The notes under the pieces were generated by a model. It worked only from the letters and a program-made list of their open reading frames with translations, ran no database searches and was not told the origin of the DNA. The position numbers and the translations under genes were made by a program. Positions 34,973 to 49,300 of a stretch of DNA of 52,032 nt are shown piece by piece. Origin of the DNA: Treponema sp. (GTDB lineage Bacteria; Spirochaetota; Spirochaetia; Treponematales; Breznakiellaceae); the NCBI GenBank assembly GCA_031279635.1, contig JAITIC010000179.1, forward strand, positions 1 through 52,032, given 5' to 3'. Every line of letters starts with the position of its first letter. Within the stretch, counting starts at the first letter, position 1.

Positions 34973-35009
34973 TTTTTGTCTTGACAAAAACATATAAAAA
35001 AGATAGATT
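34973..35009 (+). promoter_or_regulatory. Promoter of the nifH-like operon with a palindrome over -35
   Basis: TTGACA (34981-34986), 17-bp spacer, TAGATT (35004-35009). The perfect palindrome TTTTTGTC-TT-GACAAAAA (34973-34990) overlaps the -35 box, a good place for a repressor. A second TTTTGTC lies at about 34965-34971. Transcription would start near 35016, about 40 bases before the gene. Confidence 0.6.
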
Positions 35010-35056: not shown

Positions 35057-35932
35057 TTGGCCAGGAAGATCAAACAAATCGCCATATACGGAAAGGGGGG
35101 CATAGGGAAGTCTACCACCACTTCCAACCTCAGCGCGGCCCTTTCGGAGATGAACCTCAAAGTGATGCAGTTTGGCTGTGATCCCAAGAGCGACTCTACC
35201 AATACCCTCCGGGACGGTAAATTCATCCCCACCGTGCTGGACACCCTGCGGGAAAAGTCAACGGTAAAGGCCTCGGAAGTTATCCATGAGGGTTATAACG
35301 GCATCTACTGCGTCGAGGCCGGCGGCCCCGCTCCGGGTGTTGGCTGCGCCGGCAGGGGCATTATCACGGCGGTGGAACTTTTTAAGCATCAGCATGTTTT
35401 TGAGGACCTGGATCTGGACGTGGTCATTTACGATGTCCTGGGAGACGTAGTGTGCGGGGGCTTCGCCGTCCCCATCAGGGAAGGCATTGCCGAGCACGTG
35501 TTTACCGTGTCGTCGGCGGATTTTATGTCCATCTATGCTTCCAATAACCTGTTTAAGGGCATAAGCAAGTACTCCAATTCGGGGGGCGCCCTTTTGGGCG
35601 GAGTAATCGCCAATTCCATGGGGCCGCCCTATTCACGGGAGATTATCGATGACTTTGTAAAACGGACCTCCACCCAGGTAATTGAATACATCCCCCGTTC
35701 CATAACGGTAACCCAGAGCGAACTCCAGGGGAAGACCACTATTGAGGCGGCGCCCAAGTCCGAGCAGGCCAATGTGTACCGTTCTCTTGCCCGCAAGATC
35801 GCCGAACATGCGGAGTCCAGGACGCCGGCCCCGCTGGAAGTGGCGGAACTGCGGGAGTGGGCCGCTTCCTGGGCGGATAATCTTCTGGCCCTGGAACAGG
35901 GCAAGATCACATCGCCGGGCGACGCCATATAA
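35057..35932 (+). CDS. NifH-like nitrogenase-reductase family ATPase
   Basis: A 291-residue homodimeric ATP-dependent electron carrier of the NifH/BchL/CfbC superfamily. P-loop GKGGIGKSTTT (residues 12-22), both [4Fe-4S] ligands Cys97 (GVGCAGRG) and Cys133 (DVVCGGF), and Arg100 at the NifH ADP-ribosylation position. It is close to NifH, but parts diverge: FTVSSADFMSIYASNNLFKG where NifH has a YxVxSGEMMAMYAANNI-like stretch. This points to a divergent or group-IV-like branch; only a tree can decide. The start is TTG 35057 after AGGAG. It is 17 bp before the nifB-like gene. No nifD, nifK, nifE or nifN is in the window. Confidence 0.82.
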   Translation: MARKIKQIAIYGKGGIGKSTTTSNLSAALSEMNLKVMQFGCDPKSDSTNTLRDGKFIPTVLDTLREKSTVKASEVIHEGYNGIYCVEAGGPAPGVGCAGRGIITAVELFKHQHVFEDLDLDVVIYDVLGDVVCGGFAVPIREGIAEHVFTVSSADFMSIYASNNLFKGISKYSNSGGALLGGVIANSMGPPYSREIIDDFVKRTSTQVIEYIPRSITVTQSELQGKTTIEAAPKSEQANVYRSLARKIAEHAESRTPAPLEVAELREWAASWADNLLALEQGKITSPGDAI

Positions 35933-35949
35933 AGGAGTTATAGAAGAAC

Positions 35950-37266
35950 ATGCGGGATATTCAGGCACAGAAAAGCTCCAATCTGCTCAAATCCATTACG
36001 CACCCCTGCTTTAACGGCTGTGGAGGGAAGAATACGCGGATACACCTGCCTGTGGCGCCGTCCTGCAACATCCAGTGCAACTACTGCCTGCGGAAATACG
36101 AGTGCGTCAACGAAAGCAGGCCCGGCGTATGCGCTCAATTACTTGCGCCGGAGGAGGCATTGGAGCGATTCCTTGAAGCCCGGGAGCGGCTGGGGAAAAT
36201 CGACGTGGCAGGAATCGCGGGCCCCGGCGACGCCCTTGCCGAATTCGACAGGGTACGGCAGACCTTTACGCTCATCCGCAAAGCTGACCGCGGCGTTGTC
36301 TTCTGCATTTCAACCAACGGCCTCCTCCTCCCCCGGTATGCCGCTGATATTGCCGCCCTGGGCGTTTCCCACGTAACGGTAACGGTGAACGCCGCAAGTC
36401 CCCGGGAGGGGAGGCGCATCTACCGTTATGTGCAATACGGGGGAGAAAATTTTACAGGCGCTGAGGGCGTGGGTATTCTGCTTAAAAACCAGTATGAGGG
36501 CATTTCGCGCCTGCGGGAACTGGGAATTATCACCAAAGTCAACATCGTCATGCTCAAGGGTATCAACGACGCCGTCATTCCGGAGATTGTGGCGAAAGTA
36601 AAAAATGCCGGCGCGGATATGACCAACATCATGCAGCTCATCCCGGTACCAGGCACTATTTTTGAACATATTCCCATGGTAAGCAACGCCGAACTTACGG
36701 AAGCGCGGAAGCAGTGCGAGGCCTTACTACCGCAGATGTACCACTGCCGCCAGTGCCGATCCGATGCCGTGGGGACTCTGGAGGAGGATATTTCGTTTCA
36801 GTTTACCGCCGGCAAAGACTGCGGTAAGACAGAACGCTCCGTCCTGGAGGAAGAGAACCCGGCGGATGCCGAAGGGGATTCCGGAAGAGAGACCCCGCCG
36901 TTCTTCTTCGCGGCGGCCTCCAAAAACGGTATCGCGGTGGATCAGCATTTTGGGCGCGCTTCGGCCTTTTATATTTATCAGTATAAAAACGGCAAGGTTG
37001 AATTTATCGAAAAGCGGGACGTGTCCAGGTACTGCCGGGGCCGGGAAAATTGCGGCCATAACGCAGCGGAATGGCATGAAGAAGGTCTCAACGGGATTCT
37101 CGAAACGCTGGAGGACTGCGACGGCGTTATTGCCATGCGCATAGGCGAAGCACCGCGCCGCCGCCTTGCGGAACGGGGCATCAGATTTTTCATGACCTAT
37201 GATTACGTTACCGATGCGGTAAAGGAATTCGGAAAAACCTTTGCCGGGGAGATGATTCATGCCTGA
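35950..37266 (+). CDS. nifB: NifB-like radical SAM protein with C-terminal NifX-like domain
   Basis: A 438-residue enzyme expected to build the [Fe8S9C] precursor (NifB-co) of nitrogenase cofactors. Radical SAM cysteines 39, 43 and 46 (APSCNIQCNYCLRKYECVN), further N-terminal Cys20 and Cys24, and the NifB-specific CRQCRSDAVG near residue 270 are all present. An Asp/Glu-rich linker leads to a NifX/NafY-like domain (AASKNGIAVDQHFGRASAFY; YCRGRENCG). Every key residue I can check is intact, so it should be active. AAAGGAG lies upstream, and its last codons overlap the permease gene by 8 bp, which ties it to the importer. Confidence 0.9.
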   Translation: MRDIQAQKSSNLLKSITHPCFNGCGGKNTRIHLPVAPSCNIQCNYCLRKYECVNESRPGVCAQLLAPEEALERFLEARERLGKIDVAGIAGPGDALAEFDRVRQTFTLIRKADRGVVFCISTNGLLLPRYAADIAALGVSHVTVTVNAASPREGRRIYRYVQYGGENFTGAEGVGILLKNQYEGISRLRELGIITKVNIVMLKGINDAVIPEIVAKVKNAGADMTNIMQLIPVPGTIFEHIPMVSNAELTEARKQCEALLPQMYHCRQCRSDAVGTLEEDISFQFTAGKDCGKTERSVLEEENPADAEGDSGRETPPFFFAAASKNGIAVDQHFGRASAFYIYQYKNGKVEFIEKRDVSRYCRGRENCGHNAAEWHEEGLNGILETLEDCDGVIAMRIGEAPRRRLAERGIRFFMTYDYVTDAVKEFGKTFAGEMIHA

Positions 37267-38236
37267 GAAAAAGAATGTTTTTTTTGTTCAATTTGATCCA
37301 AGGGAGCTTTTGTCCCCGGCGGCGCTGCTGGCGGTTTTGACCATGCATATCCTTGTGCCGGCCAGTCCGGGATACAGGGTAAAGCAGCTCCCCTATTTTA
37401 CCAATTTTCTCTATCTGCTGCTGGCGTTCTTTGCCCTCTGGATAGCCGCCGGCCTGTTCAAAACCGTCTTGGGGGAAAAACTTGCCTTTAAGTCCGGTTT
37501 CTATGGGGTGGGCTTTTTGCTGCTGGGGGTCTACGATTTTATCACCCTAAAACTGAATCTGCTGCCGGGAATTTACTTTCCCGCGCCGGAACGGATCATC
37601 GGCGTCTTTGTAAAGGACTGGCTCTTTATCCTCCAATGCCTGGTTTATTCTCTAAGGCTTCTTCTGGGCGGTTTTTTTCTGGGCGCTTTTCTGGGGGTTG
37701 TCACCGGGACCCTTATCGGCTGGAGCCAGCGGTTTAACTACTGGATCATGCCCTTTATCCGCATCGTGGGGCCCATCCCGTCAACCGCGTGGATTCCCGT
37801 TGCCCTGGTCATCTTTTTAAAACCCACCGACGCCAGCCTGTTCCTCATCGCCCTGGGGGTCTGGTTCCCCACCACGGTGCTCACCAGTTCCGGCATCATG
37901 AACGTGCAGAAAAGCTACTTCGAGGTTTCCAGTACCCTGGGGGCGGGCGCCCTGCGGAACATCCTCTCAATCGCGCTGCCCGGCGCCGCGCCCAACATTT
38001 TTTCGGGCCTTTTCAACGGAACTTCCGCCTGCTTCCTCACCCTTATGGCCGCCGAGATGATCGGCTGTAAATTCGGCATCGGCTGGTATATCAACTGGCA
38101 ACGGGAGACCCTCGCCTATTCCAACGTGTACGCGGCCCTCATCGTGATCGCCGTCACTTTCTCCCTGCTCATCAGTTTGCAGTTCAAAATCAGGAACAAG
38201 GTGCTGGCCTGGCAGAAAGGTACTATCAGATGGTGA
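37259..38236 (+). CDS. ABC transporter permease, NitT/TauT family (importer 1)
   Basis: A 325-residue inner-membrane permease of the nitrate/sulfonate/taurine class. About 80 extra N-terminal residues with two membrane segments (AALLAVLTMHILVP; FLYLLLAFFALWIA) precede the core. The ATPase-contact region is FEVSSTLGAGALRNILSIALPGAAPNIFSG, and IRIVGPIPSTAWIPVALVIF is typical of the SsuC/TauC group. ATG 37259 lies within the end of nifB and its stop overlaps the ATPase start by 7 bp, so the four genes from nifH form one transcript. Confidence 0.87.
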   Translation: MPEKKNVFFVQFDPRELLSPAALLAVLTMHILVPASPGYRVKQLPYFTNFLYLLLAFFALWIAAGLFKTVLGEKLAFKSGFYGVGFLLLGVYDFITLKLNLLPGIYFPAPERIIGVFVKDWLFILQCLVYSLRLLLGGFFLGAFLGVVTGTLIGWSQRFNYWIMPFIRIVGPIPSTAWIPVALVIFLKPTDASLFLIALGVWFPTTVLTSSGIMNVQKSYFEVSSTLGAGALRNILSIALPGAAPNIFSGLFNGTSACFLTLMAAEMIGCKFGIGWYINWQRETLAYSNVYAALIVIAVTFSLLISLQFKIRNKVLAWQKGTIRW

Positions 38237-39036
38237 ATGATCGGGAAACGGCGCGGAATGCCGGATTGATCGAGATTGAAAAACTCCGCAAGAGTTTTCC
38301 TCAAAACGAAGGGGACGACATCATAGTTCTTGATAACGTCGATCTTCGTTTTGAAAGCGGTGAATTTGTTTCCCTTATCGGGCCGTCGGGCTGCGGCAAA
38401 TCTACCCTGCTGCGCATCATCGCGGGCCTTACCCCCTCCGATTCGGGCCGCATTACGCTTGACGGCGGGGTAGTTTCCGCGCCGGGCTTTGAACGGGGGC
38501 TGGTGTTCCAGGACCCGACGCTGTTCCCCTGGATGACCATATACGAGAACATAGCCTACGGCCTCCGTTCACGGGGAGTGTATAAAGAGGAAAAGCAGAA
38601 TATCCCCGCTTATTTTAAGCTGGTGGGCCTTACGGGTTTTGAAAAATCCTATCCCCACCATTTGTCGGGAGGCATGGCCCAGCGGGCGGCACTTGCACGG
38701 ACTCTGGTCAATAAGCCAAAGGTACTGCTCCTGGACGAACCCCTGGGCGCCCTTGATGCCTTTACCCGCATGAACATGCAGGACGAAATTTTAAAAATCT
38801 GGCGGGAACGTGGCATGACTACCGTCATGGTAACCCACGATGTGGACGAGGCCATCTACATGGCTGGCAGAATCGTCGTGATGTCGGCGAGGCCGGCGAA
38901 GATCGAAACGATCATCAAAGTGGAGATAGGCCGTCCCAGACAGCGGGACGATCCTGATTTTTTGGATCTCAGGGCGAAGATACTTCAAATACTGCACTTT
39001 GCGGGACACCGGGAGGATTTGCAGTATTACCTGTAG
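38230..39036 (+). CDS. ABC transporter ATP-binding protein, NitT/TauT family (importer 1)
   Basis: A 268-residue ATPase driving importer 1. Walker A GPSGCGKSTLLRIIAG, Q-loop VFQDPTLFPWMTIYENI, signature LSGGMAQRAALARTL, Walker B VLLLDEPLGALDAFTR and switch VTHDVDEAIYMAGRIVVMSARP are all intact and in SsuB/TauB order. It overlaps the permease and is followed after about 110 bp by the binding protein. The gap (39037-39145) shows no clear promoter or terminator. Confidence 0.9.
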   Translation: MVNDRETARNAGLIEIEKLRKSFPQNEGDDIIVLDNVDLRFESGEFVSLIGPSGCGKSTLLRIIAGLTPSDSGRITLDGGVVSAPGFERGLVFQDPTLFPWMTIYENIAYGLRSRGVYKEEKQNIPAYFKLVGLTGFEKSYPHHLSGGMAQRAALARTLVNKPKVLLLDEPLGALDAFTRMNMQDEILKIWRERGMTTVMVTHDVDEAIYMAGRIVVMSARPAKIETIIKVEIGRPRQRDDPDFLDLRAKILQILHFAGHREDLQYYL

Positions 39037-39145: not shown

Positions 39146-40156
39146 ATGAAAAAGACAGCGCTTGTGTTACTACTGGCCTGTACGGTTCTTGCCGGTCTTT
39201 CGGCAAGAGGTCAACAAGAGCCTTCCGGCGGGGCCGGCGATTATACGCTGACCATCGGCCTTCCGGTTGAGGGCGGGCTCTGCGAAGCCCCCTTCTATAT
39301 CGCCATAGAAAAGGGCTTCTACGACGAGGAGGGACTCAAATGGCGGGAGTTCAAGATGGACCCCGGTACGGCGATGAATCATCTTACCAACGGCACTATC
39401 GACGTTACCAACAACCTGCTGGCAACCCTGATCCAACCCATCGCCAACGGCCTGGACATCAAGATTCCCCTGGCCCTGCATACCGGATGTGTCAAGGTGC
39501 TGGTCAGGCCCGATTCCCCGATCCGCAGCCCCATCGATCTCAAGGGGAAGAAGATCGGCGTTCCCAGCCTCAATTCCAGTACCAAGGTAATACCTTCGCG
39601 GGTACTCGCCAGCCTGGGACTAAAAATTGACGGCCCCGGAGCGGATGTGGAATGGATCATCTATCCCTCGGCGGAACTGCCCCTGGCCCTTGAGCGCGGC
39701 CTGGTTGACGCTATCGGCTCAGGCGACCCCGCCGCTTCGATTATCGAAAACGAAGGCAAGGCGAGAGTGATCATTAACAACGCCACCGATGACAATCTCA
39801 AAAACGAATTCTGCTGCGTGACTCCGGTCCGTTCCGCCGCGATTGTGGAACACCCCGAAGAAGTGGCGAAATTCCTGCGGGCCATTCAGAAGGCTTCCAA
39901 GTGGGTCCAGGAGAACCCTGACGAGGCCGCGAGGATCATCACCGAGAAGAAGTACATTGCCGGTGAAATCGCGGTCAACGCCCAGGTGCTTAAGAGCTTC
40001 AACTACCGGGCATCGGTGAGCCAGGCGCTTGCGGCTATTGAGCGTAACGCCAAAGAACTCCAGCAGATCGGTATCGTCGCTTCTGACGTTGACGTGGACG
40101 CTCTGGTAAAGAACACATTCTACCAGGTACCCGGCGTTCCCGATTCGCTGTTTTAG
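39146..40156 (+). CDS. Periplasmic binding protein, NitT/TauT family (importer 1)
   Basis: A 336-residue SBP of the NMT1/THI5 or SsuA type that would define what importer 1 takes up. Signal sequence at residues 1-20 (LVLLLACTVLAGLSARG), then GLPVEGGLCEAPFYIAIEKGFYDEEGL and DLKGKKIGVPSLNSSTKVIP, both family landmarks. I begin at ATG 39146 because AAAGGAGACGAGTT is before it; an in-frame start at 38999 would overlap the ATPase gene. The ligand is unknown: nitrate, sulfonates, taurine, pyrimidine precursors and others use this fold. Confidence 0.85.
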   Translation: MKKTALVLLLACTVLAGLSARGQQEPSGGAGDYTLTIGLPVEGGLCEAPFYIAIEKGFYDEEGLKWREFKMDPGTAMNHLTNGTIDVTNNLLATLIQPIANGLDIKIPLALHTGCVKVLVRPDSPIRSPIDLKGKKIGVPSLNSSTKVIPSRVLASLGLKIDGPGADVEWIIYPSAELPLALERGLVDAIGSGDPAASIIENEGKARVIINNATDDNLKNEFCCVTPVRSAAIVEHPEEVAKFLRAIQKASKWVQENPDEAARIITEKKYIAGEIAVNAQVLKSFNYRASVSQALAAIERNAKELQQIGIVASDVDVDALVKNTFYQVPGVPDSLF

Positions 40157-40269: not shown

Positions 40270-41346
40270 ATGAAAAAACTGACCGTTTCTTTATTCCTGT
40301 TCTGCGCCGCTTTTTCCCTGCTCACGGCGGGAGGCGGTAAACAGGATTCCGGCGCTCCGGGCGCGGCTTCCCAGCCTGCAGCCTTAAAACCCTTTAACCT
40401 GGGGCATCTCAATTCCACGGCCCACCTGTTGGCCTTTGTCGCCAAAGAGGAAGGCTTCTTTGCCGAGGAGGGGCTGGACGCGACGCTGACCCAGTTTGCC
40501 AGCGCCGCCGAACTTGCCGCGGGTCTTGAGTCCGGCAAGCTGGACACGGCCTTTATCGGTTCGGTTCCGGTAATAACCTTCCAGTCCACCGGTCATGACC
40601 TCACGATCTTCGGGGGCGCCATGACCAACGGACATGGTTATGTCATCAAAACCGAGCTGGTCCCGCCGGGCTTCAAGGAGGGGGACATCACCGTCCTAAA
40701 GGGACGGAACGTGGCGACGGTTAAAAACAGCGTCCAGGAGTACGAACTCCTCGTTCTGCTGAAAAACGCGGGGCTTACGCCGGGCGGGGACGTGAATGTC
40801 GTGTACTTCAACAATCAGACCGAAGCCTACAACGCCCTTCAGAACAGGGAAATAGACGCGGTGTCGGTCTACTCACCGTACGCGTCGCGGGCACGGAGCG
40901 AGGGCTACACGGTCGTTTATTACTGCAACGAAAAAGACGAATTCCAAAACCAGCCTTGCTGCCGGCAGGTGGCGCATACGCCCGCGCTCAGGACGAATCC
41001 CGCCCTGTTTGAGGCTGCCGAACGGGCCTTCATCAAGGCTTATAAGTTTTCGCAGGAGAACCACGAAAAGACGATCGACGACGTGAATAAGTACATCCCG
41101 CTGGCGCGGGAACTGGTTGAGTACGAGGTTTACGGCGGTCACAGCCTTTCGAGTCCCGATCCGGACAAGAAGGCCACGGTTCTCTTAAAGGAAGACGTGG
41201 TTGCCTTTGGGTATACCAATGATTACAACATCGAGCCGCTGTACAATACCGCCATTTACAAGGCGGCCCTGGACAGCCTCTTGAGGGCCAATCCCAATGA
41301 CGCGGTATACAAGGGCCTCTTGGATCATTTTAACCGGTATGAATAA
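40270..41346 (+). CDS. Periplasmic binding protein, NitT/TauT family (importer 2)
   Basis: A 358-residue SBP for importer 2. Signal peptide residues 1-21 (LFLFCAAFSLLTAGGG), no lipobox cysteine. Family marks: LGHLNSTAHLLAFVAKEEGFFAEEGLD, GLESGKLDTAFIGSVPVI, and LKGRNVATVKNSVQEYELL. It is clearly distinct from the first SBP, so two ligands are likely. Several residues (AVSVYSPYASRARSEGY) line a pocket typical of nitrate/sulfonate SBPs. AAGGAGAGTTT precedes the ATG. Confidence 0.85.
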   Translation: MKKLTVSLFLFCAAFSLLTAGGGKQDSGAPGAASQPAALKPFNLGHLNSTAHLLAFVAKEEGFFAEEGLDATLTQFASAAELAAGLESGKLDTAFIGSVPVITFQSTGHDLTIFGGAMTNGHGYVIKTELVPPGFKEGDITVLKGRNVATVKNSVQEYELLVLLKNAGLTPGGDVNVVYFNNQTEAYNALQNREIDAVSVYSPYASRARSEGYTVVYYCNEKDEFQNQPCCRQVAHTPALRTNPALFEAAERAFIKAYKFSQENHEKTIDDVNKYIPLARELVEYEVYGGHSLSSPDPDKKATVLLKEDVVAFGYTNDYNIEPLYNTAIYKAALDSLLRANPNDAVYKGLLDHFNRYE

Positions 41347-41419: not shown

Positions 41420-42247
41420 ATGAACAAGATTGAGGCGAGCGGATTGACAGTCAGATACCGGGACGGAAACGGGGTGTTTACCGCCCTGGAAGACGTGTCT
41501 TTCGTGGTCGGGAACGGGGAGTTTGTCTGCATCATAGGGTCTTCGGGCTGCGGCAAGAGTACGCTGCTGGGCGTCCTGGGAGGGCTGCGCCGTCCGGATG
41601 CGGGAAAGGCGTCCATTGACGGCAAAAAAATTACCGGCCCCGGCCCGGACAGGAGCATGGTCTTTCAGCATTATTCGCTTTTTCCATGGATGACCGCGCG
41701 GAATAATGTGGCCTTTGGCATTAAGCAGGTGCGGAAGAACCTTTCCCGCGGGGAACGTCTCGACAGGGCCGGCATTTTTCTTGACCGTGTGGGGCTTCTG
41801 AATTTTCAAAACAAATACCCCGGGCAGCTTTCGGGGGGGATGAGGCAGCGGGTTGCCATTGCCCGCTCCCTCGCAATGGACACGGAAATACTGCTGATGG
41901 ACGAGCCTTTCGGGGCGGTGGACGCGAAGAACAGGACGATTTTGCAGGAGCTTCTGTTAAAGCTCTGGGAAGGGGGCGAGGACGATGTGGTGTATCCGCC
42001 CGGCGAAAGTTCCCGCTCGCGGGAGCGCAAGACCGTCGTGTTTGTTACCCACGACATCGACGAGGCCGTACTGATGGCGGACAGGATCATCATGATGAGC
42101 GACAGCCCCGGAAAAATCTGCCGCGAAATATCTGTTCCCTTTGAGCGGCCCCGGAACAGAGCCGCGTTGATTCAGGCGCCGGAATATACGAGGCTGCGCA
42201 GCGAACTTTTGGCGCTGTTCTTCAACGACTTTGGGAGCGCTATATGA
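41420..42247 (+). CDS. ABC transporter ATP-binding protein, NitT/TauT family (importer 2)
   Basis: A 275-residue ATPase for importer 2. Walker A GSSGCGKSTLLGVLGG, Q-loop VFQHYSLFPWMTARNNV, signature LSGGMRQRVAIARSL, Walker B ILLMDEPFGAVDAKNR and switch FVTHDIDEAVLMADRIIMMSDSP. It carries a short polar insert before the switch (EDDVVYPPGESSRSRERK) that importer 1's ATPase lacks. Start ATG 41420 after AAGGAACAAAGG. It overlaps the permease by 4 bp (ATGA). Confidence 0.9.
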   Translation: MNKIEASGLTVRYRDGNGVFTALEDVSFVVGNGEFVCIIGSSGCGKSTLLGVLGGLRRPDAGKASIDGKKITGPGPDRSMVFQHYSLFPWMTARNNVAFGIKQVRKNLSRGERLDRAGIFLDRVGLLNFQNKYPGQLSGGMRQRVAIARSLAMDTEILLMDEPFGAVDAKNRTILQELLLKLWEGGEDDVVYPPGESSRSRERKTVVFVTHDIDEAVLMADRIIMMSDSPGKICREISVPFERPRNRAALIQAPEYTRLRSELLALFFNDFGSAI

Positions 42248-43179
42248 AAAAAGCGGTTTCGCACACAGCCGCGGGACGCCTGATGAAGGCGGCCCATCTT
42301 CTTTTTATCGTTTTTTTACTCATCCAGCTTTTGGAAGACAGGGCGAAGAATCCCCATCCCGCTTACGCGCTTATTTTTATAACCGCCCTTGAAACTGTTT
42401 TTATACTCGTGTCGATTCTGATAAAAAAAACGGGAACGCTTAATCTGTTTGCCGACATAACCGGCTTTGTATATCTTTTTGTCATTTTATGGACTCTCTC
42501 TACCGCGAAATTCAACATACTCAAGGCGTCGTTTTTCCCGCCGCCGGGCACGGTGTTCGAGCAGGCCGTGCGGGACGGCGGCGTCATACTGATCAACATC
42601 AGAACGTCCCTGGGCATCGTGGCCGAAGGCTATTTGCTCGCCCTTGTATTCGCGATTCCGCTGGGACTTCTCTTGGGCTGGAACCTCAGGGCGGGGAACG
42701 CGGCGGTTTACATTTCCAAGTTTCTGGGTTCCATACCGCCCGTGGTCTACATACCCTACGGCATCGCCCTCCTGCCGACCTTCCGTTCGGTTTCGGTGAT
42801 GGTCATCTTCCTCGCCTCGTTCTGGCCCGCCTTCGCGGGAACGATGAGCGGGACGCTGAATGTGGAACGCCAGATTATCGAGTCCGCGTTGTCGCTCAAC
42901 GTGAAGAAGATACCCATGCTGTTTCAGATTATTCTGCCCGCTGTTCTGCCGCAGATCTTTATCGGCTGCAACCAGGGCCTGACGGTTTCGTTTATCCTGC
43001 TCACCTCGGCGGAGATGATCGGCGGCAGGAGCGGCCTCGGCTATTATGTAAAAAACTTTTCAGACTTTGGCGATTATACACGCATCATCGCCGGCGTTAT
43101 TGTAATCGGCATCGTCATAACGGCGATTACCTTTTTTTTCAACAAATTACAGAAGTTTCTTCTGCGCTGGAAAAGCTGA
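42244..43179 (+). CDS. ABC transporter permease, NitT/TauT family (importer 2)
   Basis: A 311-residue permease with two extra N-terminal membrane segments before the core, as in importer 1's permease. Family stretch: LGSIPPVVYIPYGIALLPTF and ESALSLNVKKIPMLFQIILP, then the conserved SAEMIGGRSGLGYYV. Its start overlaps the ATPase stop (ATGA). The methyltransferase gene begins 36 bp after its end, so importer 2 and that enzyme look co-transcribed. Confidence 0.87.
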   Translation: MKKAVSHTAAGRLMKAAHLLFIVFLLIQLLEDRAKNPHPAYALIFITALETVFILVSILIKKTGTLNLFADITGFVYLFVILWTLSTAKFNILKASFFPPPGTVFEQAVRDGGVILINIRTSLGIVAEGYLLALVFAIPLGLLLGWNLRAGNAAVYISKFLGSIPPVVYIPYGIALLPTFRSVSVMVIFLASFWPAFAGTMSGTLNVERQIIESALSLNVKKIPMLFQIILPAVLPQIFIGCNQGLTVSFILLTSAEMIGGRSGLGYYVKNFSDFGDYTRIIAGVIVIGIVITAITFFFNKLQKFLLRWKS

Positions 43180-43214
43180 ACAAAAACTTAACGAGAAACT
43201 TGACAGGAGGAATT

Positions 43215-44246
43215 ATGAATGCGAAAGAAATTATTACGAATCTGCTGGAGCTGAAACCGACGCCGCGTATTCCCGCGACATTGATGTCCGCCGGGGCTTG
43301 GGCGCTCAACTCAAACGGGCTTTCGCTAGAGCGGGCACTGTCCGCGCCGGCGGAGGAGGTGGCGGAAATTCTGCATCGCGCCTATAACAGCGTCGATTCC
43401 GACATTGTATGGGCCATGTCGGGCTACAACAACATTGTCATCGGCGCGCTTGGGGGCAAAATCAAATTCCGCCAGAAGGGAACGCCGGACGTAATCGAAA
43501 CCCTGATTAAAGACCCTTTGGATGCAGATAATCTTGACATCAATAAAATCAAAAATGATGAAAAGATACGTTTTATCCTTGAGGTTTCGCGTCTGTTGGC
43601 CCAAAAAATTAACGGCGAAAATTTTCTCGCCCTGACCCGATGGGGGCCGTTCACGCTGGCGGGACTTCTTTACGGCGCGGAAAACCTGATGCGGGACGTA
43701 TACAAAAAGCCCGACGCGGTGCGGCATCTCATCGACTTTACCGTTGATCTCTACATTGCCTACGCGGGACTGTACATCGACAACGGCGTTGATTTTTTTC
43801 TTCTGGCGGAACCGACCGCTTCGGGAGACATGATTTCGCGCAAGCATTTTGAAGCCTTCGCCGTCCCGGCTTTTAAGAAGGTCTTTGACGCGCTCAAGGT
43901 GAAGAACGTGAGGACGGCGCTCCACATCTGCGGCAATATCGAAAACAGGCTCGATCTCCTCAATGACATCGGCGCGGAATTGATTTCCGTTGACTACAAG
44001 GTGAGCCTTAAAAAATGCCGCGAGGTCTTTGATAAAAAAACCGCCTTTGCCGGGAACGTCAATCCCGCTGCCGTGATGCTCAAAGAAACGCCGGAGGGGG
44101 TCGCCAGGGTCAGCGGGGAATGTATTGCCGACGCCGGCGGTGAACCGGGCTTTCTTCTCATGCCCGGCTGCGATATTCCGCCCGCCACGCCCGCCGCAAA
44201 CATCAGGGCGCTGACAAAGACGGGCCGCGAATATGCGGTAACATAA
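43215..44246 (+). CDS. UroD/MtaA-family corrinoid methyltransferase 1
   Basis: A 343-residue protein of the uroporphyrinogen-decarboxylase superfamily in its methyltransferase branch (MtaA, CmuA, O-demethylase components). It would move methyl groups between a substrate or carrier and a corrinoid protein. Zinc-ligand candidates: His and Cys in ALHICGNIENR (about residues 236-238) and Cys in LMPGCDIPPATPAANI (about 318). It lacks the Arg-rich porphyrin loop expected of HemE. ATG 43215 follows GACAGGAGG; the longer open frame upstream is antisense-like read-through of the permease and is discarded. A perfect 13-bp hairpin follows the stop. Confidence 0.82.
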   Translation: MNAKEIITNLLELKPTPRIPATLMSAGAWALNSNGLSLERALSAPAEEVAEILHRAYNSVDSDIVWAMSGYNNIVIGALGGKIKFRQKGTPDVIETLIKDPLDADNLDINKIKNDEKIRFILEVSRLLAQKINGENFLALTRWGPFTLAGLLYGAENLMRDVYKKPDAVRHLIDFTVDLYIAYAGLYIDNGVDFFLLAEPTASGDMISRKHFEAFAVPAFKKVFDALKVKNVRTALHICGNIENRLDLLNDIGAELISVDYKVSLKKCREVFDKKTAFAGNVNPAAVMLKETPEGVARVSGECIADAGGEPGFLLMPGCDIPPATPAANIRALTKTGREYAVT

Positions 44247-44403
44247 GAGGCTTTCCCAAAACTTCAGTTTTGGGAAAGCAGCCTTGAAATTCGCAGTTTT
44301 GCAAGGCTGAAAGCCTGAAAAACTACACGGGCCTGTCCCAAAACCGTGCCCCCGGCTATGCCGGGAACGTGAGCGCACAGTCAATTAGTTTTGGGACAGG
44401 CTC
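44247..44403 (-). repeat. Palindromic repeat block, full 71-bp element plus hairpins
   Basis: Three modules: a perfect stem GCTTTCCCAAAAC-TTCA-GTTTTGGGAAAGC (44250-44279), which may end the upstream transcript; an AAACTGC-type hairpin (44290-44325); and a 71-bp element (44331-44401) with perfect 14-bp terminal inverted repeats GCCTGTCCCAAAAC. The element is the reverse complement of 51918-51988, with a CCCGGC-TAT-GCCGGG centre. Confidence 0.8.
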
Positions 44404-44465
44404 ATAAGTCCGCTGATTTTTGCGGGCTTTACGCGGATTTGGGATGGAGAATTATGGTGAAGAAA

Positions 44466-44845
44466 CTAAAACACCGGAGCCGCCTCAAGCCCAGGCCACA
44501 CAAGGCAGCTCGGTTTTTTATCGGCGGCAGGGAGTTTTGCGTTCAAAACAACGGCTGTCACCGCGATTATCGCGTCGGGCAATTTTGGACGGGGCAAAGC
44601 TTCCGGAGAATACGGATTGCTTCGTTTTTTATTGCGACAGAGAGGGGGATAATGGTTATGCCTTTCAGGAAAGCATATATCTTCTGTTCCGCCTCCGGTG
44701 AAATATCAGGTTTGGCAGGGAGTTCTATTTCCGTGACGACGCTGATAAACAGAACAACTTTAGGCAACGACAGTATACGTTTGTTCAGAAAATTCATGCA
44801 TACGCACGAGTCCGGCACGGATCGCCCGTCAGTCAGGCCATTCAT
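44466..44845 (-). pseudogene. Broken VapC-type PIN-domain toxin
   Basis: The minus strand encodes a PIN-domain RNase toxin in two frames. Frame one starts at ATG 44845, overlapping the antitoxin by 17 bp, and reads PDSCVCMNFLNKRI and VTEIELPAKPDISPEAEQKI to about 44595. The rest, KLPDAIIAVTAVVLNAKLPAADK, with the conserved LPDAIIA block, lies in another frame and ends at 44466. A one-base indel near 44590-44605 explains it. The segment after the first block also seems short. The toxin is probably dead, unless the indel is a sequencing error. Confidence 0.6.
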
Positions 44846-45071
44846 CGTGCAACTTCCACTGACACTCAACGCCGTCTTCGAGGAACACGCCTTTCAGGCA
44901 GCCGCAGTATTTTTGCAGGGAATCGCCGGACGGGTCGTCAAGACGTTCCGCCGTTTTCCGCCTGGCTTCCGCCTTCAACTCTTCGAGGGTAGGAAACGGT
45001 TCACGGGCGTTCCGGCTTTCGGGCGCGGGGCTTTCGGCGGCGGCAATGTCAACAGTCTGTTCAATGGTCAT
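44829..45071 (-). CDS. Antitoxin of a type II toxin-antitoxin pair (possibly truncated)
   Basis: An 80-residue protein. The start (MTIEQTVDI) and the C-terminal half (PTLEELKAEARRKTAERL, then KLHDEWPD) resemble VapB-like antitoxins paired with PIN toxins in treponemes. The DNA-binding N-terminal part that normally follows TVDIPAD is very short, suggesting an internal deletion. It overlaps the toxin remnant, as expected for antitoxin-toxin gene order. Nothing supports a gene on the plus strand in this stretch. Confidence 0.5.
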   Translation of the reverse strand: MTIEQTVDIAAAESPAPESRNAREPFPTLEELKAEARRKTAERLDDPSGDSLQKYCGCLKGVFLEDGVECQWKLHDEWPD

Positions 45072-45196
45072 CACGGGTTAACCATGCAGCGCAAAGAGGC
45101 AAAAAGCAAGGGCGGGATGCCCGGAGAGGGGGCGGTAACAGCGCCACTCTAAATACATCGGATTTGTAATCGTATTCACATTACAGGAGGAATGAA

Positions 45197-45841
45197 ATGA
45201 GTGATGGATTGTTGAAGAAACTGTCCGATTCCGTCGTTGACATGGACGAGGAAGGGGCGGTCAAGTATTCCAACCAGGCTGTGGAAGAAAAACTCGACGC
45301 CTACCTTGCCATTGACAAGGGCCTGGCCAGGGGAATGGAGCGGGCGGGAAAACTCTTTGATGAGGAAGAGTATTTTGTTCCCGAACTCATCATCTGTTCC
45401 GACGCCATGAACGCGGGTATTGCCGTGTTAAAGCCCCACCTCAAGCAGGAGAACGCGGCGGTAAAGCGCAAGGGGGTGATCGGCGTTATTGAAGGGGATA
45501 CCCACGACATCGGAAAGAACCTGGTGAAGATCATGCTTGAGGCATCTGGATTTGAAATCCATGACCTGGGACGGGACGTGCCGCCCCAGGCCTTTGTGGA
45601 CAAGGCCGAGGAGATTGGGGCAGAACTGATACTGCTTTCGAGCCTTATGACGACAACTATGGACAACATGGAAGAAGTGGTAAAAATACTGGTCCGGCGG
45701 GGCATACGGCACAAGTATAAGGTCGCCGTCGGCGGGGGGCCCATCAGCCAGGCCTTCGCGGATCGCATCGGGGCCGACGGTTATTCAAAGAACGCCAACG
45801 ATGCGGTGCGGCTCTGCGGCGAACTCCTTGCCGGCGCCTGA
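45197..45841 (+). CDS. Methyltransferase cognate corrinoid protein (B12-binding)
   Basis: A 214-residue carrier of the MtaC/MtbC/MttC and MetH-like fold. The N-terminal helical cap (residues 1-90) contains MERAGKLFDEEEYFVPELII; the cobalamin domain has EGDTHDIGKNL with His103 as the lower cobalt ligand, LGRDVPPQAFVDKA, and the SSLMTTTMDNMEEVV helix, ending with VAVGGGPISQAFADRIGADGY. It would carry the methyl group between the UroD-family enzymes. A good site, ACAGGAGG, precedes the ATG. The next gene begins 1 bp after its stop. Confidence 0.92.
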   Translation: MSDGLLKKLSDSVVDMDEEGAVKYSNQAVEEKLDAYLAIDKGLARGMERAGKLFDEEEYFVPELIICSDAMNAGIAVLKPHLKQENAAVKRKGVIGVIEGDTHDIGKNLVKIMLEASGFEIHDLGRDVPPQAFVDKAEEIGAELILLSSLMTTTMDNMEEVVKILVRRGIRHKYKVAVGGGPISQAFADRIGADGYSKNANDAVRLCGELLAGA

Positions 45842-45842
45842 C

Positions 45843-46877
45843 ATGACCGGTGTTTTTTCCCCACTTGAACGGCTCAGGCGGAAGCTGGATAAAAAGGGCG
45901 CCGACCGGCCGCCGGTGATCTGCCCCGGCGGCATGATGAACGCCGCTATTGTCGAGGTGATGCAAAAGGGGGGCCGCGTCCTTCCCGATGCCCACCACGA
46001 AGGCGGCCTGATGGCGGGCCTCGCCGAGGACGTACAGGCCTTTACGGGTTTTGAAAATTACGGCGTTCCCTTCTGCATGACCGTCGAACCCGAAGCCCTG
46101 GGCAGCAGTGTCAATTACGGCTCCCTTACCTGCGAACCGAAAATTGCGCGGGAGCAATTCCTCCACGTTAAGGATGTTGAGTTTGCGCCGGACGGGGCCG
46201 TCGCAAAAAGCAGGCGCGGAGAAGCGGTACTTGAGGCGGTAAACACCCTCGCCCGGAGGCGCGCGGACATTCCCGTCATCGGCAGCATCACGGGGCCCGT
46301 GAGCAGCGCCGCTTCCCTGGTTGACCCCATGACCTTCTTTAAGGAACTTTACCGGGACCGGGAAAACGCCCACCGCCTGTTGTCTTATGTTACGGAGCAG
46401 CTTGTTGACTGGGCTTTGTGCATGGCCGAAAGCGGCGCGTCGGTTTTATCTATTGCCGATCCTACCGCCACAGGAGAGATCCTGGGACCCCGGCTCTTTG
46501 AGGAATACGCTTTGCCTTATCTCAATCAGATCGTACGGGCCGTACACAAAACCGGGAGGCCCGTAATCGTCCACATCTGCGGCGATGTGGGCCGGGTTAA
46601 ACAGCATCTTTATAACCTTGAAAGCGACGCCTTGAGCGTTGACGCTATGGTGAATCTCACCTTAATCAAAAAGGAAAATCCCGACGTTACCACGATGGGA
46701 AATTTGAGCACCTATCTTTTGGAGTCAGGCGATCCCGGGCGCATACAGAGGGCCGCCGAAAATCTTCTCGATAAGGAGATTGACATTATCGCCCCTGCCT
46801 GCGGCCTTTCAACCTCAAGCCCTCTTGAAAACATCCGGGCCTTTACCGGCGCGGTAAAAGAGCGGGCCAATGCCTGA
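45843..46877 (+). CDS. UroD/MtaA-family corrinoid methyltransferase 2
   Basis: A 344-residue protein of the same superfamily as the product of 43215-44246. Zinc-ligand candidates: His244 and Cys246 (VHICGDVGRV) and Cys319 (IAPACGLSTSSPLENI). It also has SITGPVSSAASLVDP and SIADPTATGEILGPRLFEEYALPYL, which are family landmarks. I start at ATG 45843, one base after the corrinoid gene, although an in-frame ATG at 45801 inside that gene would add 14 residues. It overlaps the reactivase gene by 8 bp. It may be the substrate-specific or the carrier-specific transferase. Confidence 0.85.
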   Translation: MTGVFSPLERLRRKLDKKGADRPPVICPGGMMNAAIVEVMQKGGRVLPDAHHEGGLMAGLAEDVQAFTGFENYGVPFCMTVEPEALGSSVNYGSLTCEPKIAREQFLHVKDVEFAPDGAVAKSRRGEAVLEAVNTLARRRADIPVIGSITGPVSSAASLVDPMTFFKELYRDRENAHRLLSYVTEQLVDWALCMAESGASVLSIADPTATGEILGPRLFEEYALPYLNQIVRAVHKTGRPVIVHICGDVGRVKQHLYNLESDALSVDAMVNLTLIKKENPDVTTMGNLSTYLLESGDPGRIQRAAENLLDKEIDIIAPACGLSTSSPLENIRAFTGAVKERANA

Positions 46878-48507
46878 CATCATTTTTATTACTGCCGAAA
46901 GGGGCGGCGAAAAAAAGACGGCCGTACAAGCGGAGAAGGGCCAAAAGATTATTGAAGCCGCCCGCCGTGGAGGAATCAACATCGAAACCCCCTGCAACGG
47001 ACTTGGGCTCTGCGGAAAATGCGCCGTGAGGGACGGGGGAACAGGCGAATTTCTCCTTGCCTGCCAGCGGACTATCGAACGGGACGCCGCCTATATCGTG
47101 CGTGATTACGAGAACGAAAACGACAGCCTCCGTATTCTTTCCGAGGGCAGCAGCTTTGATTATCCCCTGGAACCTTTTATTACAAAACGGTTTGTAAACG
47201 GCAAGACCGAAGTCTACGGCGGCAATGAACTTTGGGGAGTCGAGGACGGAGATACCACAGGCCCGTTGTACGGCCTCGCGGTCGATATAGGAACCACAAC
47301 CCTCGTGGCCAATCTTATTGACATAAAGACGGGAAAATGCCTGGCCTCGGTTTCGGCGCTGAACCCCCAGTCACATTACGCACAGGACGTGTTGGGGCGC
47401 ATCCATTTTGCGGGCAAAGGGGACGGCCTGTCGGTTTTATACCAGGCGTTTATCGGCAAACTCAATCTGATGATAGCGGAATTGACGCAAAAAGCGGGAA
47501 TCGCGCCGGCCCATATCTACGAGATTGTGTACAGCGGCAACACCACCATGCTGCACCTTGCCTGCAATGTCGATCCAGCGGGGCTTGGGAAGTACCCCTA
47601 CACGCCGGCCATAAGCGGAGGCTGTTATACAATGGAAGAAGCCCTCAATGTTTCACCCTTTGCCCGCGTGTATCTGCCGCCGGTTATTTCGGCATACGTG
47701 GGCGCGGACATTAGTTCCGGTTTACTGATAACTAAACTGGAAGAAAGAAAAGGCGGCGTTCTTTTTATCGACATCGGGACAAACGGGGAGATGGCCTTCG
47801 CGAAAAACGGCCGTATCGCGGCGTCCTCTACCGCGGCAGGGCCTGCCTTTGAAGGCATGAACATCTCCTGCGGCATGAGGGCCAACGCCGGCGCCATTGA
47901 ATCCTTCGCCGTGAACGAAGACGGCGGCTGTGTGTATACCGTCATAGGCGGCGTAAACAAGGCCGCCGGAATTTGCGGCAGCGGCCTCCTCGATATAGCG
48001 GGCGAACTCGTCCGTACCGGAGTCATCGACAGCCGCGGCCGCTTCGTCCCTCCTGATAAAGGCAACTATTCAGCCCTCTTAAAGGAGCGCATGGGGCAGG
48101 TAGAGGGGAAAAACGCCTTTTTCATTACCGGCGATGTGTACCTAGCCCAAAAAGATATACGGCAGATACAACTGGCCAAAGGTGCAATAAGATGCGGCAT
48201 CGAAATGCTTCTTTCCCGCTTTAATGACGATGCCGGGGGCGCCAATGAAATAGACGAAATAATCATCGCCGGTTCTTTCGGCTATCACCTTAACGAAAAA
48301 AGCCTCCTCAACATCGGCCTCCTCCCTCCCCGGTGCGGCGGGCAAATTTCTTTTGCCGGGAACACCTCCCTTTCGGGGGCCGGAGCCTTTTTGCTGAACG
48401 CCTCGTTCAGGCAAAAAATGAAGGAAGTGACGGCGCGGGTAGAAAATATCGAGCTTGCCCGGGACTCTGAATTTGAGCGCGTCTTTATCAAATACATGGG
48501 GTTTTAA
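46870..48507 (+). CDS. Corrinoid-protein reactivase with [2Fe-2S] and ASKHA (DUF4445) domains
   Basis: A 545-residue ATP-dependent activator that would re-reduce Co(II) in the corrinoid protein. Residues 42, 48, 51 and 65 (PCNGLGLCGKCAV; LLACQ) are ligands of a plant-type [2Fe-2S] cluster. A linker leads to the DUF4445 ATPase: LAVDIGTTTLVANLID (about 138), YSGNTTMLHLACNVDP, GVLFIDIGTNGEMAF, AGICGSGLLDIAGELV and EIIIAGSFGYHLNE. This matches RACE/RamA-like activators but is shorter than many. It overlaps the preceding gene by 8 bp and precedes the third UroD protein by 1 bp. Confidence 0.88.
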   Translation: MPDIIFITAERGGEKKTAVQAEKGQKIIEAARRGGINIETPCNGLGLCGKCAVRDGGTGEFLLACQRTIERDAAYIVRDYENENDSLRILSEGSSFDYPLEPFITKRFVNGKTEVYGGNELWGVEDGDTTGPLYGLAVDIGTTTLVANLIDIKTGKCLASVSALNPQSHYAQDVLGRIHFAGKGDGLSVLYQAFIGKLNLMIAELTQKAGIAPAHIYEIVYSGNTTMLHLACNVDPAGLGKYPYTPAISGGCYTMEEALNVSPFARVYLPPVISAYVGADISSGLLITKLEERKGGVLFIDIGTNGEMAFAKNGRIAASSTAAGPAFEGMNISCGMRANAGAIESFAVNEDGGCVYTVIGGVNKAAGICGSGLLDIAGELVRTGVIDSRGRFVPPDKGNYSALLKERMGQVEGKNAFFITGDVYLAQKDIRQIQLAKGAIRCGIEMLLSRFNDDAGGANEIDEIIIAGSFGYHLNEKSLLNIGLLPPRCGGQISFAGNTSLSGAGAFLLNASFRQKMKEVTARVENIELARDSEFERVFIKYMGF

Positions 48508-48508
48508 T

Positions 48509-49300
48509 ATGGCGCGTGCTTCCGGCATTGATTTTGATCCCGATTTTGACCTCAATGCCCTGTGCATGGGGCATATCACGGGCAATACCGCTAATAATAT
48601 CATCGCCTTTCCGGATGATTTTACCACCGAGGCAAAAGCCTTGGGAGCGGAGACCGAAACAACCGCCAACGGCTTTGAGGTTATACGCCCCCTTTTTACC
48701 GAACCGGATATGCTTTTTAATATTCCGGCATTTGAGGAATCTGAAGGGATCAAAAACGTAGTTGAAGAGATACGCGCCGCGTCAAAAGAAAAGAAAGTCC
48801 TGTTAAAACTGAACGGCCCCTATTCGGTTCTCGCGTCCCTGGTTAGCCCTGAACTTTTTTACCGCTGGTGCGCGAAATACCGGCAAGCGATCCATTCTGC
48901 CCTTGATTCAATTACCGCAAGTCTGGAAATATATCTTGATGAATCAATTAATGCGGGCGCGGGTATCGTTTCGCTGGCGGACCCGTACGCGAATGTTTCG
49001 GTATTGGGTGAAAAACGCTATAGGGAATTCGCCGCGGCGTATTTGTTACGATTGCTGCGCGGCCGTGAAGGAGAAACGGCTGTTATTCATCTTTGCCCCC
49101 ACAGTTCGATCCCCCTGGTACAATTCGGTTATTTTGAAGCAAAGGATATACCGGTAAAGAATGATTCATATTTGGACGCCCTTGTCCGCCAGAGCGGGCC
49201 CTTACTGCTGGGGAACCGGTGCATATATTCAGGAAAAAGTGATTCCATAACTTCCCTGATATGCGAAACTTTTTGCCCCCCGCTGTTTTTACCCCGATAA
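48509..49300 (+). CDS. Short UroD-family protein 3
   Basis: A 263-residue member of the UroD methyltransferase branch, about 80 residues shorter than the others. It keeps LCMGHITGNTANNIIAF near the start, LKLNGPYSVLASLVSPELFY, and IVSLADPYANVSVLGEKRYREF. The usual HxCG becomes HLCPH (His194, Cys196), and a Cys at about 238 (LLGNRCIYSG) may be the third ligand. It begins 1 bp after the reactivase stop and closes the operon. It could be a divergent transferase or a scaffold; substrate is unknown. Confidence 0.75.
   Translation: MARASGIDFDPDFDLNALCMGHITGNTANNIIAFPDDFTTEAKALGAETETTANGFEVIRPLFTEPDMLFNIPAFEESEGIKNVVEEIRAASKEKKVLLKLNGPYSVLASLVSPELFYRWCAKYRQAIHSALDSITASLEIYLDESINAGAGIVSLADPYANVSVLGEKRYREFAAAYLLRLLRGREGETAVIHLCPHSSIPLVQFGYFEAKDIPVKNDSYLDALVRQSGPLLLGNRCIYSGKSDSITSLICETFCPPLFLPR

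Follow-up and report, generated by a model that had tools for sequence, protein, structure and literature searches.

A MarH-type Fe protein and a full-length NifB encoded beside importer and corrinoid methyltransferase genes in a Treponema genome: probable half of a group IV nitrogenase-like system

Introduction

What do a nifH-like gene and an intact nifB gene do at the head of an importer operon that has no nitrogenase catalytic subunits? This question is raised by contig JAITIC010000179.1 (52,032 nucleotides, analysed over its whole length and hereafter the window), which is contig C60 of a Treponema sp. metagenome-assembled genome (MAG; GenBank assembly GCA_031279635.1, here G000) of 3.10 Mb in 276 contigs that is 91% complete and 5.4% contaminated. 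Its closest named relatives, judged by NifB, are three Treponema MAGs; isolate names and context suggest a termite-gut origin for these and for G000. Throughout, G, L and C numbers denote genomes, loci and contigs, and H, B, D and K the products of the corresponding nif-like or mar-like genes. From sequence comparison we consider H and B to be, probably, the reductase and the cofactor-maker of a group IV nitrogenase-like system that cleaves C-S bonds, is tied to corrinoid S-methyltransferases and has its D and K subunits encoded on other contigs.

Results and Discussion

An Fe protein of the MarH type beside a nitrogenase-type NifB

The Fe protein gene (plus strand, 35057..35932) starts with TTG after AGGAG, and its product scores 402.9 bits against TIGR01287 (cut-off 394.35) and 331 bits against PF00142. 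An initial annotation had described a NifH-like gene with both cluster cysteines; the gene is intact, and the cysteines are present as Cys97 and Cys133, the numbers also given for the cluster cysteines of MarH (PMC12552129). The closest relative of solved structure is MarH of Rhodospirillum rubrum (476 bits), followed by a NifH at 281 bits, and identity is 74% to MarH versus 50-51% to four NifH rows. In a tree of 47 rows H falls in a 14-row clade together with MarH (support 100/99), while ordinary NifH forms a separate 30-row clade (100/99); before tree building, H and B rows from loci L053-L107, which are mostly cyanobacterial, had been thinned, with 17 and 38 dropped, respectively. Tree and identity together place H as a MarH-type Fe protein and not as a nitrogenase NifH. 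It is the sole full Fe protein gene found in the genome, the other three PF00142 matches being partial (22-30 bits). At E 1e-100 such an H occurs in 6 of 392 genomes sampled across the phylum, G000 among them, and two of these six hold only forms like those of isethionate reductase (Isr), at 57-61% identity.

The nifB gene (plus strand, 35950..37266) encodes a full-length, nitrogenase-type NifB whose match to TIGR01290 (380.6 bits, cut-off 343.65) covers both the radical SAM and the NifX-like domain. The CNIQCNYC, ESRP, AGPGD and CRQCR stretches are all present, in agreement with the motifs first noted. The last codons of nifB overlap the start of a permease gene, as had been seen, and do so by 8 bp; what had been called a fusion into an importer operon holds as an operon-style overlap but not as a fusion of proteins. 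Moreover, the window was correctly described as devoid of nifD, nifK, nifE and nifN, its only PF00148 match being one of 12.4 bits (E 0.06), under the cut-off.

D and K genes on other contigs

A PF00148 search of the genome returned four genes over the cut-off, comprising an adjacent pair on C82 (locus L011) and single genes on C270 (L012) and C238 (L013). The C82 pair (L011:1250-4008) has MarK and MarD as its top relatives of solved structure. A D/K tree of 69 rows assigns all four genes to Mar-type clades, one for D and one for K (17 rows and 100/99 support in each), that are distinct from NifDKEN. We could find no canonical NifDKEN in this 91% complete MAG. The minimum set of Mo-nitrogenase, nifHDKENB, is therefore not assembled here, since the four PF00148 genes are all Mar-type and H lies in the MarH clade. 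Contamination as the mere source of the C82 pair was rejected, given that G380 has a pair 71-73% identical.

These results bear out the initial proposal of a nitrogenase-like system with catalytic subunits elsewhere, for which Mar had been named as a precedent. The second option offered then, a new use of the NifB product and NifH, is not needed, and a function of the two proteins without D and K was rejected because D and K are found elsewhere in the genome. We sought, but did not find in the 91% complete MAG, a separate complete nif cluster together with an H of NifH groups I-III. An ordinary nif cluster split from its own nifH and nifB was likewise rejected, as H is of MarH type and no NifDKEN was found.

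On C270 the K gene directly follows cysK. An autoinducer-2 kinase gene (745.7 bits, cut-off 528) lies in divergent orientation to this cysK and Mar-type K (L012:4867-9010). On C238 (L013:1310-10217) the broken D gene lies beside an MtaA-like gene, two methylthioribose kinase genes (378 and 371 bits, cut-off 275), a ribose-type importer and an FGGY kinase, likely a cluster for methylthioribose uptake and salvage. Contig C263 holds together mtnA, a class II aldolase-family gene and a phosphorylase-family gene that we read as mtnP. Disruption of the C238 D gene by a repeat element found no support, in that the first 140 bases, at the broken end, match only themselves in the assembly; a break in the gene and an assembly end cannot be told apart from the sequence.

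Three types of D subunit

The C82 pair, the C270 K and the C238 D have retained, as far as each extends, the two P-cluster cysteine triads and Cys270. Comparison of 28 D rows separates types by their loop residues. In the strict Mar clade, which includes R. rubrum MarD, Arg428-His429 is found in 8/8 rows. The next clade, which we call linked D (12 rows, 94/99), has the His without the Arg in 11/11 rows that reach the loop (10 genes, one of them twice); the C238 D belongs here and ends before loop I. The divergent C82 type (3 rows from 2 genes, on C82 and on contig C37 of G380) has neither residue, its loop I being shorter by the His, and keeps every P-cluster cysteine as well as Cys270. A His is conserved in its loop II, however, two residues away from the column of the NifD ligand, which makes another ligand possible. 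Thus the linked D family keeps the loop-I His and lacks the Arg proposed as a Mar hallmark, and a third D type lacks both; this looks new. Among the remaining rows, one divergent D of G358 fits none of the types, and a Tyr stands at the Cys66 column in two rows of one G380 gene, perhaps through alignment error. An AlphaFold model of a linked D (L029), built from 4 sequences, has a mean predicted local distance difference test (pLDDT) score of 61 and a predicted template modelling (TM) score of 0.64, and its top three Foldseek matches are MarD chains, a weak support at TM 0.46-0.53 and a root-mean-square deviation near 10.

The loop residues bear directly on two other explanations. A strict methylthio-alkane reductase, converting methylthioethanol to methanethiol and ethylene for methionine salvage, would suit the MarH-type H and a genome that has methylthioribose kinases, mtnA, a class II aldolase-family gene (a candidate Ald2 only) and a phosphorylase-family gene. 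No D with Arg428 and His429 was found in this genome, however, where the C82 D has neither and the C238 D is cut before the loop, and we regard this explanation as quite unlikely. Slightly more credit, though still little, is due to a group IV-A (Nfa) nitrogenase that needs no NifEN to fix N2. Such activity is reported for Endomicrobium proavitum, whose nif-like genes are all Nfa and which incorporated 15N2 (PMC9147875); no canonical NifDKEN was found in our genome either, and we suspect that the linked D clade may well be Nfa, although no Nfa sequence is in the D/K tree. Against it, the NifD motif QS-x-GHH and the loop-II His occur in 0/17 Mar-type D rows versus 8/8 NifD rows (the C238 D stops before loop II), G358, G031 and G060 additionally carry a canonical NifDKEN-like set, and the linkage described below is with cysK, importers and S-methyltransferases.

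The cysteines bear on a third explanation, an Isr-like system for sulfonate sulfur. Ssu/Tau-like importers adjoin the Fe protein gene here, as they do in Rhodobacter capsulatus, but IsrD lacks the cofactor Cys and two of the three P-cluster cysteines, all of which D retains here, and IsrB does not resemble NifB, whereas B here is a full NifB. Isethionate reductase itself was rejected on the cysteine pattern of D, and we hold an Isr-like system to be highly improbable. A separate Isr-like H-D-K lineage was observed in L198:6785-13115 (G358), L199:10488-14161 (G263), L202:6676-14106 (G391) and L178:3189-9331 (G060), and at least three of these four loci also carry genes of an Ssu-like importer. 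The D type of this lineage (4 rows) lacks Cys66, Cys158 and Cys270, and has Asp or Gly at the Cys66 position, where IsrD is reported to have Arg.

Recurrent linkage in relatives

The relative with the closest H is G028 (H 96% and B 87% identical), in which H, B, two importers, corrinoid methyltransferases, D, K and cysK all lie on one 31.6-kb contig. The order there is H-B-importer-two binding proteins-importer-Mlp-Mlp-RACo-Mlp (Mlp being MtaA-like methyltransferases), with a corrinoid gene also present and D-K-cysK convergent; the 8-bp overlap of B and permease is retained. In the single-contig genome G358, cysK-H-B is divergent from binding protein-ATPase-permease-Mlp-D-K-corrinoid-Mlp-RACo, a strict MarDK pair lies nearby and a canonical NifDKEN-like set of four is found at 2.96 Mb. 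PF00148 genes over the cut-off are unusually many in this genome (12) and in the Bacillota genome G060 (14; Firmicutes UBA5324, source of locus L048).

We compared 13 MarH-clade loci with a control set of 25 canonical nif loci, a subset of the nif loci retrieved. The tally of 13 omits Isr-like H loci (the second copies in G060 and G358, and those of G263 and G391), fragments at contig ends in G024 and G035, and the D- and K-bearing piece of G031 (L183). Importer permease and ATPase genes are near H in 7/13 MarH-clade loci versus 0/25 controls (Fisher p 1.4e-4) and cysK in 7/13 versus 1/25 (p 9e-4), values that are too favourable because proteins of the window itself served as queries and the loci, which vary in length, are related to one another. 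Mlp genes are near H in four and corrinoid protein genes in three of the MarH-clade loci, and in none of the controls; the direct overlap of B and permease is found in two of the 13.

That bias is one of several points that weigh against a C-S cleaving system tied to methyltransferases. Five of the 13 loci (G380, G414, L030 and L050, with G031 for cysK) are without cysK, the importer or both nearby, and corrinoid genes stand near H in only 3-4 of the 13. In the genome itself the C270 K is followed by no D, the intact C82 D lacks the loop-I His and the C238 D is truncated at the contig end; as the linked D is thus broken in this MAG, activity here is not assured. The broken D and the K without an adjacent D would also suit a decaying system of which H and B are leftovers that no longer work in this species. 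Such decay we think improbable, given that neither H nor B is damaged and both closely resemble their G028 counterparts, that the C82 pair is likewise intact and that G380 keeps an H-B pair with intact D and K on other contigs.

Probable exchange of NifB and short MarB-like enzymes

In a NifB tree of 53 rows, in which R. rubrum MarB is not included, the window NifB belongs to a clade of seven MarH-linked treponemal rows nested among canonical nif-cluster NifB. The B proteins of G358, G009 and G031 are radical-SAM-only enzymes of 290-306 residues that score 257-259 bits, under the NifB cut-off, and a separate NifX-like protein is encoded in G009, G031 and G036. A single clade for all MarH-linked treponemal B proteins tested was rejected on the radical-SAM part (approximately unbiased test, p 0.013), a value that is indicative because inspection of the first tree preceded the choice of the group. 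All five treponemal carriers of nitrogenase-type NifB searched for PF00148 (G000, G028, G059, G061 and G380) have only Mar-type D/K. The Bacillota genome G060 complicates this simple story: it has NifDKEN, and the B linked to its MarH, likewise a full NifB (463 bits), groups with NifB from the nif cluster of that genome. Taken together, these data are indicative of a swap, in one direction or the other, between nitrogenase-type NifB and short MarB-like enzymes, and the swap looks new.

In G009 (L111:2686-6433) and G059 (L180:8302-12129), strict MarDK-type genes stand beside an Fe protein of the ordinary NifH clade, near the NifH of Clostridium pasteurianum. Therefore, H too seems to have been exchanged between nitrogenase and Mar systems.

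Gene order in the window

Downstream of nifB, and also on the plus strand, follow a NitT/TauT-type ABC permease (37259..38236) and an ABC ATPase (38230..39036) that overlap by 7 bp, two SsuA-like substrate-binding proteins (39146..40156, PF09084, and 40270..41346, PF13379, with 136 and 110 bits against TIGR01728, both under its cut-off of 163.5), and a second ATPase (41420..42247) and permease (42244..43179). The initial annotation thus had the importer operon right, and the cluster is longer, reaching about 49300. Next comes MlpA, an MtaA-like corrinoid methyltransferase (43212..44246) with the H-x-C and C of the S-methyltransferase zinc site, for which subfamily models stay under their cut-offs. 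Directly 3′ of it lies a 13-bp perfect inverted repeat (44250..44279, no strand assigned), possibly the end of a first transcript, although terminator-like sites overall are not above chance. The 0.95-kb gap from 44246 to 45197, between MlpA and the corrinoid gene, holds inverted repeats and a minus-strand open reading frame of 100 residues that had no match in a Pfam search.

Beyond the gap, still on the plus strand, are a corrinoid (B12-binding) protein (45197..45841), a second MtaA-like methyltransferase, MlpB (45801..46877; NF004889 352 bits, cut-off 244; zinc-site H-x-C and a later C), a RACo-type corrinoid reductive activase (46870..48507; PF14574, PF17651) and a short UROD-like protein, MlpC (48455..49300), with partial matches and a true start probably downstream of 48455. 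Given the inverted repeat and the gap, the window may hold two transcripts and not one. A weak promoter-like site 5′ of the Fe protein gene (34981..35009, plus strand, TTGACA-17-TAGATT, 10/12 matches) is not above chance, since nine such sites occur in the region versus 6.5 +/- 2.5 expected. No riboswitch was matched by Rfam at gathering scores in seven sources, the window included. The gene overlap and the recurrent linkage suggest that H and B are co-transcribed and co-regulated with the importer, in line with the link to uptake of a sulfur or nitrogen compound that had been proposed.

A possible route from organosulfur to cysteine

In the system that we favour, NifB would make an [Fe8S9C]-type precursor, which would pass directly, without NifEN, into the Mar-related D/K encoded on other contigs. 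The MarH-type Fe protein would supply these with electrons in an ATP-driven manner, and D/K would cleave C-S bonds of organosulfur compounds that arrive through the neighbouring Ssu/Tau-like importers or from methylthioribose salvage. Methanethiol or sulfide so released may be handled by the corrinoid S-methyltransferases, through demethylation, and assimilated by the linked cysteine synthase.

We put forward more tentatively, as possible but doubtful in its full detail, that NifB and short MarB-type enzymes replaced each other in treponemes and that a nitrogenase-type NifB was kept here for a nitrogenase-free system. One H/B pair would then serve two to three D/K types (with a loop-I His and no Arg, or with no such ligand) alongside importers, corrinoid methyltransferases and cysteine synthase, in an anaerobic route from imported thioether to cysteine for which the nitrogenase precursor cluster is the shared cofactor. 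If so, organisms without nitrogenase use the NifB cofactor precursor for a purpose other than nitrogen fixation, and NifB can stand in for MarB-type enzymes and vice versa; complementation would then be a direct test for a nitrogenase-type cluster in these group IV reductases. Moreover, such nifH and nifB genes should not be counted as evidence of nitrogen fixation in termite guts, and a defined gene set would be at hand for anaerobic organosulfur use by gut spirochetes.

Comparison with known systems

A system of this kind is already known, because the association of mlp with group IV-A genes, homologues in Pillotina corrugata, Isr and the NflDK sets of Heliophilum are in print. We did not meet the B swap, the loop-I variants or the overlap of nifB with an importer gene in the passages of the open-licence literature searched. 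Kountz and Balskus (2023) report group IV-A Mar-like genes inside non-selenium type I mlp clusters, close to them or at other places in the genome, and propose a role in methionine salvage (PMC10418091). In common with those clusters, ours has MtaA-like methyltransferases together with a corrinoid protein and a reductive activase, and the MarHDK-like genes lie either within the cluster or at other sites of the genome; cysK and methylthioribose genes are named in the legend of their Fig. 7. The corrinoid protein (45197-45841) and Ram/RACE activase (46870-48507) that mark type I are both present, and selD, the sole selenium gene searched, reaches 24 bits against a cut-off of 125 in this 91% complete MAG, as expected of the non-selenium kind. 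This likeness is one of gene content. The cited passages name no NifB and no such importer, whereas here NifB runs into an importer operon.

With MarBHDK of R. rubrum (9fmg, 9d9u; PMC12552129) the system shares a 74% identical H, one clade each for D and K, the P-cluster cysteines with Cys270 and a NifB-like B. It differs in that the linked D lacks Arg428, the C82 D lacks both Arg428 and His429, D/K do not stand beside H here and B is nitrogenase-type. Nfa of Endomicrobium, Paenibacillus and Heliophilum (PMC9147875) is similarly group IV, with several D/K sets (in Heliophilum, several NflDK sets are described) and no NifEN, but is said to fix N2 in E. proavitum; its comparison with the linked D clade is by description only. 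IsrBHDK (PMC11423573) is a nitrogenase-like system of sulfur assimilation with an Ssu-type importer and differs in the cysteine pattern of D and the enzyme type of B. Lastly, the termite spirochete Pillotina corrugata (PMC13067680, 2026), which belongs to the same group of spirochetes and for which the cited passages tell of no importer or corrinoid link, resembles our genome in its scattered group IV nifB, nifH, nifD and nifK and in the position of nifDK beside a cysteine synthase gene.

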